Source: Bacillota bacterium
GTDB lineage: Bacteria; Bacillota_A; Clostridia; Clostridiales; Clostridiaceae
Assembly (NCBI GenBank): GCA_021780795.1
Contig: JAJXYA010000158.1
Span: 1-9,995 of the forward strand
Length of the DNA stretch: 9,995 nt
Reading direction: 5' to 3'
Positions 3,876-9,995 of this stretch are shown here, piece after piece. Both the position numbers and the translations under genes were made by a program. Numbering within the stretch: position 1 is the stretch's first letter; each line of letters begins with the position of its first letter. The notes beneath the pieces were generated by a model. It saw nothing but the letters and a program-made list of their open reading frames with translations, searched no databases and had not been told where the DNA came from.

Positions 3876-4808
3876 CTAAATTTTTTCAGCCACTCTTAGC
3901 TTTGCACTTCTGCTTCTTGAATTCATTTCTAATTCTTCTTCAGTTGCCTCTATAGGTTTTTTGCTTATAAGTTTTATACTTGGTGTTTTACCGCACACAC
4001 AATAAGGTAGATTTTTTGGGCATCCACACGGATCTTGCAAGTTTTTAAATTTGGTTTTAACTATTCTATCTTCAAGTGAGTGGAATGTAATAATTGCCAT
4101 TCTTCCACTACAATTAAGTCTATTTATTCCATCTTCTATTGCTTTATTTAATATTTTTAATTCTCCGTTAACTTCAATTCTTATACCCTGGAAGGTTCTT
4201 TTAGCTGGATGGCCACCTTCTCTCTTAAACTTACCTGGAATAGCTGCATCTATAACATTTACTAGTTCTAAAGTAGTATCAATTGGTTTGTCTTTTCTTC
4301 TATCTACTATAAAATTAGCTATTCTTTTTGAAAATTTTTCTTCTCCATAATTTCTTAAAACCTCTGCTATCTGTTCCTCACTATAAGTATTAACCACGTC
4401 ATGAGCCGATATCCCCTTACTTCTATCCATTCTCATGTCGAGAGTTGCATCCCTCATGTAGCTAAATCCACGTTCTGTCTCATCTAATTGAAAAGAAGAA
4501 ACTCCTAAATCCATAAGAATACCATCTACTTTTTCTACTCCCAATTTTTCTAATATAGCTTCAATATTATAAAAATTATCGTGTACATATGTAACATTAT
4601 TAAATTCTTTAAGCTTTTCCCTTGCTGCTTTTAGTGCATCTTCATCTTGATCAATTCCAATTAATCGTCCATTTTTTGATAATCTTTTTAAAATTTCTAA
4701 AGAGTGTCCAGCACCTCCCAATGTACAATCAACATAAATTCCATCTTCTTTAATATTTAGCGCCTCAAGGCACTCATTTAATAAAACTGATATGTGCTTA
4801 AATTCCAT
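3876..4808 (-). CDS. rsmH: 16S rRNA (cytosine(1402)-N(4))-methyltransferase RsmH (MraW)
   Basis: This enzyme transfers a methyl group from S-adenosylmethionine to N4 of C1402 (E. coli numbering) in the decoding centre of 16S rRNA. 310 residues, the usual family length. Visible motifs are [13 protein letters not shown] (5-17), the SAM-binding loop [11 protein letters not shown] (26-36), the acidic GIDQDEDAL (51-59), [19 protein letters not shown] (99-117), the DMRMD block (124-128), [18 protein letters not shown] (200-217) and [11 protein letters not shown] (241-251). A compact CGC...CVC cluster (Cys261, 263, 270, 272) sits before the C-terminal [12 protein letters not shown] tail (297-308); it recalls a metal site but I cannot tell if it binds metal. 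The ATG at 4808 has AAGGAGA 6 bases upstream, overlapping the mraZ stop region, so the two are probably translated from one transcript. Confidence 0.97.
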
Positions 4809-5322: not shown

Positions 5323-5352
5323 ATTCTATAGAAAAATGAAAATTCCTTCTAA
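5323..5352 (-). promoter_or_regulatory. Possible promoter of the mraZ-dcw operon
   Basis: On the minus strand TTAGAA (5352-5347) and TAGAAT (5328-5323) are 18 bases apart. The -10 matches five of six consensus positions, but the -35 is poor. Transcription would start near 5316, at the edge of the first MraZ box, which fits repression by occupancy. Another -10 reading (TATAGA, spacing 16) overlaps it. Confidence 0.4.
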
Positions 5353-5419
5353 TTTTACTGAACTATTATCATTTTTTAAAAATAATTAAACTTTTTTATT
5401 GTTTTACTTGGATATATTA

Positions 5420-5457
5420 ACTAAAAATACATCATTAGTATTTATTGCATTTTTAGT
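5420..5457. repeat. 9-bp inverted repeat in the mraZ-ychF divergent region
   Basis: ACTAAAAAT (5420-5428) and ATTTTTAGT (5449-5457) are perfect inverted copies with a 20-base spacer. They lie about 28 bases upstream of the ychF -35 and about 70 bases upstream of the mraZ -35. They could be an operator, but the arms are almost pure A/T and may be chance. The rest of the 5315-5484 stretch is AT-rich with nothing further that I recognise. Confidence 0.3.
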
Positions 5458-9270: not shown

Positions 9271-9684
9271 ATGGGATTTAAAGACAAATTGACTAATAGC
9301 TATACACAAGCTTATTTAAAAAGATATGGTGATAGACTTACTCAAGCACAAGGTAGGGTTCTATCAGTCAAAGTAGAAGAAAAAAGTTATCTAAAAATAC
9401 TTTATAAATTAACAGTAACTATCTTAGTAAAGGCCGACGGAAGTAAATCTATTGCTAAGTGTGTGTTTAAGAAAAGACGTTGGTTCAAAAAAATCAACTT
9501 TATTTCAGTACTTCAAGGACATTCTGTTATAATTCAAGGAATGAAGGGCAAAAAAGGAAAAGAGCACAGAGAGCAAATCCAAATTGTAAACATTAGAAAT
9601 ATGACTACAAAGAAGGACTTGGTTCCAGTGCAAGGAAATGCACCAAAAGTGCAAAGAGTAAGATCTGATAGACGTTTTAAATAA
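9271..9684 (+). CDS. Uncharacterised small, highly basic protein, possible OB-like fold
   Basis: I do not recognise a named family. The protein is 137 residues with about 33 Lys/Arg against 9 Asp/Glu by my count, no membrane segment and no signal peptide, so it is cytoplasmic and could bind RNA, DNA or ribosomes. After a short helical start (MGFKDKLTNSYTQAYLKRYG) the pattern is beta-rich: GRVLSV (28-33), YKLTVTILVK (45-54), a basic hairpin with FKKRRWFKK (66-74), SVIIQG (85-90), a Lys/Gly turn (91-97) and IQIVNIRNM (103-111). That succession resembles an OB fold, which is inference. The tail (120-137) is basic and probably disordered. The start is ATG at 9271, with AAGGAG 8 bases upstream; an in-frame ATG at 9214 lies inside the promoter's -10. 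It is a single-gene unit ending at the 9685-9717 terminator. Confidence 0.75.
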   Translation: MGFKDKLTNSYTQAYLKRYGDRLTQAQGRVLSVKVEEKSYLKILYKLTVTILVKADGSKSIAKCVFKKRRWFKKINFISVLQGHSVIIQGMKGKKGKEHREQIQIVNIRNMTTKKDLVPVQGNAPKVQRVRSDRRFK

Positions 9685-9717
9685 AAAAAGCTATATGACT
9701 TTGTCATATAGCTTTTT
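9685..9717. terminator. Bidirectional terminator after the small basic-protein gene
   Basis: AAAAAGCTATATGAC (9685-9699) and its exact inverse (9703-9717) form a 15-bp stem with a 3-base loop directly after the stop codon. The plus strand ends in five T. The minus strand ends in seven T followed by ATTT, an even better tract, so it also suits the minus-strand gene arriving from the right. Confidence 0.93.
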
Positions 9718-9728
9718 AAATCTATAAT
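9701..9728 (+). promoter_or_regulatory. Possible promoter for the candidate structured RNA
   Basis: TTGTCA (9701-9706, five of six matches) and a perfect TATAAT (9723-9728) are 16 bases apart. The -35 lies in the loop and 3' arm of the preceding terminator. Predicted transcription would begin near 9735, right at the base of the hairpin block. The match is good, but AT-rich DNA yields TATAAT often. Confidence 0.4.
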
Positions 9729-9735
9729 ATAAGTA

Positions 9736-9842
9736 AATATTTAACGGGATTTCTGTAGGAAAACGGCCTTCAGAAGTCGTTAATATTGCAGAACCATAGG
9801 TACTGAACAGTTGCGTAGGTGATAGTAGCTAAGGTGGTTATG
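9736..9842 (+). ncRNA. Candidate structured RNA of unknown class
   Basis: A block of about 107 bases without a credible reading frame. G+C is about 45% by my count over 9745-9837, well above the AT-rich flanks. A long imperfect hairpin spans 9736-9787: AATATT-(T)-AACG pairs with CGTTAATATT, then after an internal loop TTCTG pairs with CAGAA and AGG with CCT, capped by AAAACGG. A second CAGAA at 9790-9794 could compete for the same TTCTG. Further right AACCAT (9792-9797) can pair with GTGGTT (9834-9839), enclosing ACT-GAAC-AGT (9802-9811). Single-stranded parts are purine-rich on the plus strand, which favours that strand. It could equally be the 3' untranslated region of the minus-strand ATPase gene or a dispersed repeat. 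I cannot match it to a known RNA family. Confidence 0.5.
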
Positions 9843-9864
9843 ATTTAATGCTTGTGCATTAAAT
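9843..9864. repeat. Perfect hairpin over the stop codon of the right-edge gene
   Basis: ATTTAATGC (9843-9851) and GCATTAAAT (9856-9864) are perfectly inverted around the four-base loop TTGT. It includes the stop codon (9847-9845) and last codons of the minus-strand gene. No T-tract follows on either strand, so it is not a terminator alone. It may close the candidate RNA on its 3' side or protect the end of the ATPase transcript. Confidence 0.5.
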
Positions 9865-9995
9865 ATAAGTACAAACTATTTATAAAGGAAATAATACCAG
9901 AGAAAAATAAAATAATTGACCATTGACCGAAATTAAGTGGTATTGTATGAAATACTCTTTGAAATAATGGAATATACACTATGCTTATTAACATA
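9845..9995 (-). CDS. P-type cation-transporting ATPase, C-terminal end (cut by window edge)
   Basis: The last 49 codons of a minus-strand gene that enters from the right, ending in TAA at 9847-9845. The visible sequence MLISIVYIPLFQRVFHTIPL continues NFGQWSIILFFSGI and ends LYLYLMHKH. It matches the end of the cation-ATPase C-terminal membrane domain: a helix ending in YIP, then a short loop with F at the family position and L..W before the last membrane helix. Calcium pumps of the PMR1/YloB/SERCA type end this way; they move cations across the membrane by ATP-driven phosphorylation of an aspartate, which is outside the window. The Met at 9994 is an internal residue, not a start. Transcription would run through the candidate RNA block to the terminator at 9717-9685. 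The ion cannot be told from this piece. Confidence 0.72.
   Translation of the reverse strand, partial: MLISIVYIPLFQRVFHTIPLNFGQWSIILFFSGIISFINSLYLYLMHKH

Follow-up and report, generated by a model that had tools for sequence, protein, structure and literature searches.

The stretch of DNA analyzed here, hereafter the window, comprises 9,995 nucleotides from a Clostridium of the C. estertheticum/tagluense/algoriphilum group, and near its end lies a hairpin-rich intergenic block that a preliminary description of the sequence had proposed to be a regulatory RNA gene with a promoter of its own. The question raised by this locus is therefore whether the block is indeed a separate RNA gene or something else. 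It is bordered upstream by a 137-aa gene with relatives in 21 loci, the best of which is found in an uncultured Clostridiaceae MAG (97%, L001) and the next in Clostridium sp. CS001 (93%, L002). Downstream, on the opposite strand, is the 3′ end of a convergent gene for a cation-transporting P-type ATPase, the translation of which ends in YLMHKH directly before the stop; the related gene in L003, in which the Pfam domain Cation_ATPase_C was found, also ends in YLYLMHKH. Based on the data presented below, the segment at 9745-9848 is most likely a worn copy of a small mobile hairpin element, rather than a separate RNA gene (Table 1).

Table 1. Positions of features in and around the hairpin block, with the proposed parts of the element copy, and loci of transposase genes carrying another palindrome
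Feature	Position or loci	Strand	Remarks and basis
137-aa gene	9271-9684		Directly upstream of the hairpin block
Intrinsic terminator hairpin	9685-9717		Separates the 137-aa gene from the element and is not part of the latter; terminator scan
Putative target pentanucleotide TTTAA	9740-9744	+	Left flank of the insertion; comparison with L001, pentamer statistics
Main hairpin, left arm TTAACGGGATTTCTGTAGG	9741-9759	+	Sequence and fold
Probable degenerate element copy, 104 nt	9745-9848	+	Match to family consensus
Main hairpin, right arm CCTTCAGAAGTCGTTAA	9767-9783	+	Best-matching core of the family
Right-end tail	9784-9848	+	Roughly three hairpin units as judged by eye; most copies have one
Right end ATGATTTAA	9840-9848	+	Recreates TTTAA
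Perfect hairpin	9843-9864		Straddles the element end and the 3′ coding end of the ATPase gene
ATPase stop codon TAA	9845-9847	-	Inside the TTTAA recreated by the element's right end
~305-aa Y1_Tnp (RAYT-like) genes with their own palindrome	L060-L063, L066-L071, L074, L077-L081		

Much of the structure attributed to this block could be verified. The terminator behind the 137-aa gene is a 15-bp hairpin (terminator-like sites, 2 vs 0.1 in shuffles), and similar hairpins occupy the same position in many of the 21 upstream-gene loci, as judged by eye. The terminator scan calls it on the minus strand alone; the proposal that it is bidirectional fits a palindrome flanked by A and T runs, again by eye. 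Both the long imperfect hairpin at 9736-9787 (-14.2 kcal/mol) and the closing perfect hairpin (9 bp) are present, the latter being a junction feature, half element end (ATTTAA) and half ATPase coding end, that is not part of the mobile unit. Consistent with a structured block, the region 9719-9870 folds better than its shuffles (z -2.9, 1 of 200 shuffles as good), and its reverse strand gives a z of -2.6 (3 of 200 as good). Other attributes fared less well. The G+C content of 9719-9844, put at about 45%, is in fact 35.7%, and 43.8% is reached only in 9763-9842; the whole window stands at 30.2%, and 14% of all 126-nt stretches within it have a G+C content equal to or above that of 9719-9844. 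The promoter-like pair TTGTCA-16-TATAAT does exist at 9701-9728, but such pairs are no more frequent than expected by chance (2 vs 2.3 ± 1.6 in shuffles); the pair lies outside the element, and its TTGTCA hexamer sits in the 3′ arm of the terminator hairpin. Finally, while the hairpin block is real, the bounds of 9719-9844 do not delimit its natural unit, which begins directly after the TTTAA target and ends four nucleotides further downstream.

Homology searches linked the block to a dispersed, non-coding, modular hairpin repeat family of the cold-loving C. estertheticum/tagluense group. BLAST with 9719-9850 as query produced matches at E <= 0.1 in 14 of the 19 genomes reached via the upstream-gene loci, with up to 42 matches per genome, although in two of the 14 (G013 and G014) only the AT-rich flank was matched. 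When a cleaner 93-nt copy from L024 was used, matches were found in 17 of 17 genus genomes, and a full 137-nt copy matched 22 of 206 genomes of the bacterial family at 1e-4. Five of these 22 lie outside the genus (G091, G107, G153, G155, and G180), with the matches in G107 and G153 being short and weak. The left-arm pattern (<=3 mismatches) occurs 60, 40, 172, and 34 times in G020, G021, G022, and G023, respectively, compared to 0, 3, 3, and 1 for the reversed control, and the right-arm pattern occurs 19, 18, 46, and 11 times in the same genomes, compared to 0 for its reversed control. The patterns employed to collect copies required a right end within 1-2 substitutions of GATGATTTAA and under-count strongly decayed ends. 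The dispersed clostridial repeat that the preliminary description had entertained as an alternative is thus supported by copies across the genus, and these are numerous and behave as a transposable repeat, the very pattern it had named as evidence against an RNA gene. BLAST searches of plasmids and phages with the window copy and with the full copy returned no match, nor did three exact patterns searched against viral contigs. Several copies were observed on a second contig of G022 (L224, 79.6 kb), which is possibly a plasmid. More distant relatives with a CTTCAGTGGGAGTAAAAACTCCTTCTGAAG arm were also seen in G107 (L184 and L185), which suggests a wider superfamily of clostridial repeats.

Family copies share the layout TTTAA-CGACATTTCAG...hairpin...ATGATTTAA. 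The 99 full copies range from 69 to 183 nt, too short for a transposase gene, and the commonest form, at 137 nt (42 of 99), reads TTTAA-CGACATTTCAGAAGGA...hairpin CTCCCACTTCTATAAGTGGGAG...TCCTTCTGAAGTCGTTAA-TATTGCAG-CTCC-GCA-GGAG-ATGATTTAA, while in the other full forms, of 69-101 nt or up to 183 nt, middle hairpins have been dropped or added. The smallest complete form seen, TTTAA-CGACATTTCAG-CNNC-GCA-GNNG-ATGATTTAA, measures 36 nt; it gave 49 matches (<=3 mismatches), spread over 12 of 17 genomes, whereas its reversed control gave none. Ahead of the right-end hairpin, 72 of 111 long copies have the tetramer GCAG and 4 have GTAG, while among 34 minimal copies 26 have TCAG, 2 have GCAG, and 1 has GTAG. 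In a subfamily present in G002 and G007, the main stem is compensated to TTTTGGAAGC/GCTTCCAAA (L188, L190, L191, L195, and L196).

Compared with the short family consensus, the window copy displays 79% identity over 67 nt (E 1.8e-11). By eye, the CAG/CTG step of the consensus main stem reads CTG/CAG in the window, both sides having changed. The 64-nt tail is unique in length when set against the 111 long copies, in which the tail measures 24-27 nt in 99 and 43-46 nt in 11; another triple right-end hairpin unit was noticed by eye in L222. The family consensus found no match in any of the 21 loci holding relatives of the upstream gene, and in BLAST comparisons 17 of the 21 match the downstream flank of the window, with the element included in none. 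In L001, the equivalent stretch reads TAAATATTTAATGCTT, where the window reads TAAATATTTAA, followed by CGGG...ATGATTTAA and then TGCTT. Because the stop codon of the ATPase gene falls in the TTTAA recreated at the right end, the insertion kept the stop codon.

The rule governing insertion could be read from the family copies. Of the 99 full copies, 86 have TTTAA as their left pentamer, 7 have GTTAA, and 3 have CTTAA; on the right, 84 have TTTAA and 6 have TTTGA. When 144 copies were considered, the first base of the left pentamer was T in 131, G in 7, C in 5, and A in 1, and no wider flank was common to them, except for a pyrimidine following the right TTTAA in 128. An exact empty site was found in G002, which reads GAAGTTCTTTAA followed by GGAAGG, whereas G005 reads GAAGTTCTTTAA, 71 nt, and GGAGAG, placing the insertion exactly 3′ of TTTAA, although this one pair fits duplication and non-duplication models alike. 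At the same place, decayed inserts are present in G020, G008, and G023, and something else of ~75 nt in G004, implying that a copy may also be passed on by descent and decay where it stands. Tandem arrangements occur as well, with 13 of 145 copies directly followed by another left end, and in L059 a solo right end lies at TTTAA, with CC next, inside a broken tnpB gene. In 75 of 99 copies both pentamers read TTTAA, which might be taken to indicate a classical MITE of a DDE transposon, with TTTAA duplicated upon insertion, and the long form does hold inverted arms. However, 7 of the 10 copies with GTTAA or CTTAA on the left retain TTTAA on the right, which simple duplication would not give, the pentamers vary chiefly at their first position on the left and at their fourth on the right, and the 36-nt form is without clear terminal inverted repeats. 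Given this minimal form and the unequal pentamers, the combination of terminal inverted repeats and target duplication that defines DDE-type MITEs does not describe the family, and we consider such an origin quite unlikely. Mutation of old copies may explain some of the inequality between left and right pentamers (e.g., the right TTTGA in 6 of 99), and with this caveat the pentamers point to a fixed short left target without target duplication.

The fold of the element family is under constraint, as is evident from an alignment of 53 of the 62 copies of 134-138 nt, nine having been omitted by eye as shorter variants or near-duplicates. In the 31-pair structure, which was taken from the consensus of those very 53 copies, standard pairs make up 94.3%, compared to 90.7% in shuffles. 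Cells in which both sides have changed number 62, compared to 20.3 ± 3.1 in shuffles and at most 25 in slid versions, and the covariation score is 0.162, compared to 0.098 in shuffles and at most 0.054 in slid versions; further pair types are no higher than in shuffles (28 vs 27.5). The middle hairpin is looser, at 85% paired, and one pair of the right-end hairpin is U-A in 27 copies and A-U in 23. Cells with G.T exceed those with A.C, by 18 to 4 in helices 1, 2, and 4 and by 39 to 21 in helix 3, indicating that the top strand is the folding strand, as DNA or RNA. The description of the block as an unrecognised, non-coding, structured unit agrees with this conserved, covarying fold and with the outcome of covariance-model searches. 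No Rfam family was identified at gathering score, the matches touching the element being at chance level (best E 0.12) and well short of that score, and relaxed E-values applied to the window, to 9600-9995, and to five loci with full copies produced chance-level or unrelated matches only. A sub-threshold match to RF03531, a C. difficile sRNA whose annotation lies within a helicase gene, was observed on the minus strand of L139 at 5337-5435 (47.9 bits vs a gathering score of 65.2, E 3e-5).

A conserved, covarying fold with G.T tolerated on one strand would also be expected of a functional regulatory or 3′-UTR RNA, spread and maintained by selection on mRNA stability, termination, or gene control. 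The placement of the copies is compatible with such a role. All 142 usable copies (of 145, three being too close to locus ends) are intergenic, with 0 of 142 inside an ORF of at least 100 aa as defined by a simple caller; 98 of 135 lie behind a co-directional gene, and in 33 of 142 the stop codon of the upstream gene falls within the first 40 nt of the copy. Yet folding of single-stranded DNA accounts for the covariation equally well, the place occupied in the window is empty in 21 loci, insertion at TTTAA is exact, and decayed copies are found at one site. Given also that no Rfam family was identified and that the window promoter is at chance level, we regard an RNA function of this kind as highly improbable. 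The dispersed transposable-type copies, the absence from 21 loci, and the chance-level hexamers all argue against the more specific proposal of a regulatory RNA gene driven by its own promoter. Replication-strand bias was tried as a further test and rejected: 100 of 143 copies are oriented with replication (60 from G020 and 40 from G021, both complete, and the 43 of 172 in G022 that are exact main-contig matches, with the 34 of G023 left out), a share similar to that of co-directional upstream genes, and it is uninformative because gene orientation explains it equally.

The marks of IS200/IS605 single-strand transposition are a fixed short left target, no target duplication, hairpins on one strand, and tandem insertion. 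Passages of PMC8266576 and PMC3119063 relate to these marks. The target, the apparent lack of duplication, the one-strand hairpins, and the tandem copies, along with a likeness to resident IS605-type elements, favor a reading akin to that of the palindrome-associated transposable elements (PATEs) discussed below, in which the window segment is probably an old copy of a non-autonomous palindromic element mobilised by an IS200/IS605-family TnpA. The top strand of the element, when single-stranded, would fold into hairpins, and a Y1 (HUH) TnpA of this family would cut and paste the element in trans without target duplication, the probable source of the enzyme being TTTAA-targeting IS605-type transposons of the same genus. 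Since TTTAA includes a stop codon and is restored at the right end, insertions at gene ends, as at the ATPase gene, would be tolerated. The window copy is worn, and its right-end hairpin comprises about three units.

The likeness to IS605-type elements is found at more than one point. In elements of the genus encoding both TnpA and TnpB, five of the six distinct left ends read follow TTTAA and one follows TTGTAA, with C as the next base in each. Several of the right ends carry CCACTTCTATAAGTGG, which corresponds to the middle hairpin of the repeat, stem and loop included. This 16-nt sequence occurs 23 times in 1.43 Mb of fetched loci, which overlap and were chosen for the repeat or a transposase gene, and the counts do not represent a genome-wide rate: 13 occurrences are in the family (9 catalogued copies and 4 further visible copies or left halves), 9 are at right ends of TnpB elements (7 distinct places), and 1 more is ~1.2 kb upstream of a TnpB domain. 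Other findings weigh against the TnpA reading. The outer ends differ, the right end of the repeat being TTTAA and that of the IS605-type elements TTCAC, and the left-end hairpins differ too. Of the Y1_Tnp and TnpB loci examined, none yielded an autonomous copy bearing both ends. A family piece was present in 1 of 30 Y1_Tnp loci (L059), and L062 has a left-arm-like stretch upstream by eye; 2 of a further 12 Y1_Tnp loci (L237-L239 left out) held a left-arm-like match, and 3 of the 21 TnpB loci examined, out of 30, held a family match somewhere. Furthermore, just 4 of 17 genomes encode a close TnpA that is intact; the TnpA of the TTTAA-targeting element at G002:C2 is intact (match 65271-65642). 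According to passages of PMC11043419 and PMC10640517, Sulfolobus IS605 elements use TTTAA; one TnpB accepts NTTAA (PMC11043419), whereas for another, changing the first base from T to C or G mattered (PMC10640517).

The shared 16-nt hairpin also lends itself to a more elaborate, and in our estimation very unlikely, idea. In this view, the long form would be a selfish hairpin into which the hairpin from the right end of a TnpB transposon, belonging to the guide RNA region of that nuclease, has been taken up. Transcripts of the long form could then engage a resident TnpB with the same TTTAA as its target motif, making the family a parasite of both the TnpA and the TnpB halves of the IS605 system. 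If this were true, each insertion would leave a usable TTTAA for renewed cutting or tandem insertion, because the right end recreates TTTAA beside the old flank.

Since the 36-nt minimal form is a single hairpin, and in this respect REP-like, a REP/REPIN-type repeat moved by a resident RAYT-like transposase (Y1_Tnp, ~305 aa or ~190 aa), instead of an IS605 TnpA, must also be considered. All 12 genomes searched have Y1_Tnp genes, and 11 have the ~305-aa class. In addition, 76 of 111 long copies have GCAG or GTAG ahead of the right-end hairpin, which resembles the GTAG/GYAG tag of REPs, for which GYAG variants of GTAG are reported in passages of PMC3733652. On the other hand, 26 of 34 minimal copies have TCAG, and in the passages of PMC8266576 consulted the only REP transposase assayed on GCAG cleaved it very poorly. 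Moreover, the ~305-aa genes carry a different palindrome, with GGACGGTTAA lying upstream of 15 of the 16 genes and TTAACCGTCC downstream of 14 of them, and the ~190-aa genes have no adjoining copy except for a left-arm half 175 nt upstream of one (L236). We met no family palindrome flanking the RAYT-like genes examined, the nearest exceptions being this left half in L236 and the left-arm-like stretch in L062. Mobilisation by a RAYT-like enzyme therefore appears unlikely, and the IS200/IS605 TnpA remains the favored candidate. Two smaller Y1_Tnp genes (185 aa in L226 and 181 aa in L230) are surrounded by CACCCCAGGGGTG hairpin copies, which are possibly a third REP-like system.

Several known systems invite comparison. 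BOX elements of Streptococcus pneumoniae are intergenic repeats built of modules, in which the ends are fixed while the middle modules vary and can be repeated, and relative to this general description of BOX the Clostridium element has a similar modularity with fixed ends. With TTTAA-targeting members of the IS200/IS605 family (G002:C2 and G010:C163, as well as IS605 of Sulfolobus islandicus) it shares insertion 3′ of TTTAA, and with the local IS605-type elements a left end starting with C and the 16-nt hairpin common to several of them, but it has neither tnpA nor tnpB, its right end is TTTAA and not TTCAC, and its left-end hairpin is another. The PATEs of Haloquadratum walsbyi are relatives of IS605-type transposons, and as portrayed in passages of PMC3119063 they resemble the element in their non-coding length, near-end palindromes, lack of target duplication, many copies, absence of a transposase of their own, and hairpins akin to IS605 ends. 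The Clostridium element differs from PATEs in being bacterial and strongly modular, in its 36-nt minimum, in a right end that recreates the target, and in that its match to resident IS605-type elements lies in an inner hairpin instead of at the ends. Repeats of the REP/REPIN/BIME type and GTAG/CGTC palindromes, as presented in parts of PMC3733652 and PMC8266576, are likewise short intergenic single-hairpin units that form tandem groups, with variable complementary stems and high copy number. In contrast to these, the element has TCAG in most minimal copies and fixed TTTAA ends, and the palindrome of the ~305-aa genes is different.

The Clostridium hairpin repeat family seems to be undescribed so far. 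The two arm sequences are absent from the main text of the literature searched, and among the matches listed, judged by titles and the starts of abstracts, none describes such a clostridial repeat. The passages of the C. estertheticum DSM 8809 genome paper on repeats, transposases, and insertion sequences contain no such repeat (PMC5104964), and the main text of PMC3733652 contains no word beginning with Firmicutes or Clostridi. In place of the guess at a new RNA gene there is now a defined repeat family with up to 172 left-arm matches per Clostridium genome. It provides a bacterial example of a hairpin element as small as 36 nt for which the target is known, an exact empty site has been found, and candidate transposases are encoded in the genomes that carry it. 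The family makes trans-mobilisation of tiny palindromes by IS200/IS605-type or RAYT enzymes testable. It also calls for caution, as copies of this kind may account for G+C-rich hairpin blocks seen in the AT-rich intergenic regions of clostridia.

While comparing the loci that hold relatives of the upstream gene, we also noticed other hairpins in the equivalent intergenic gap. In L001 (~1360-1450), the gap contains a different hairpin repeat (GTTGAGAGTTA...AACTCTCCACTCTCAAC), and in several other relatives small hairpins of other kinds sit there, as judged by eye. Following the 137-aa gene in L009 and L011 (~4412-4700) is a second element of ~170 bp that ends near GCATTATACGTAATATATAC and by eye appears to be inserted within the terminator hairpin, the corresponding hairpin of L012 being uninterrupted. 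A sequence like this ~170-bp element adjoins a TnpB gene in L302.
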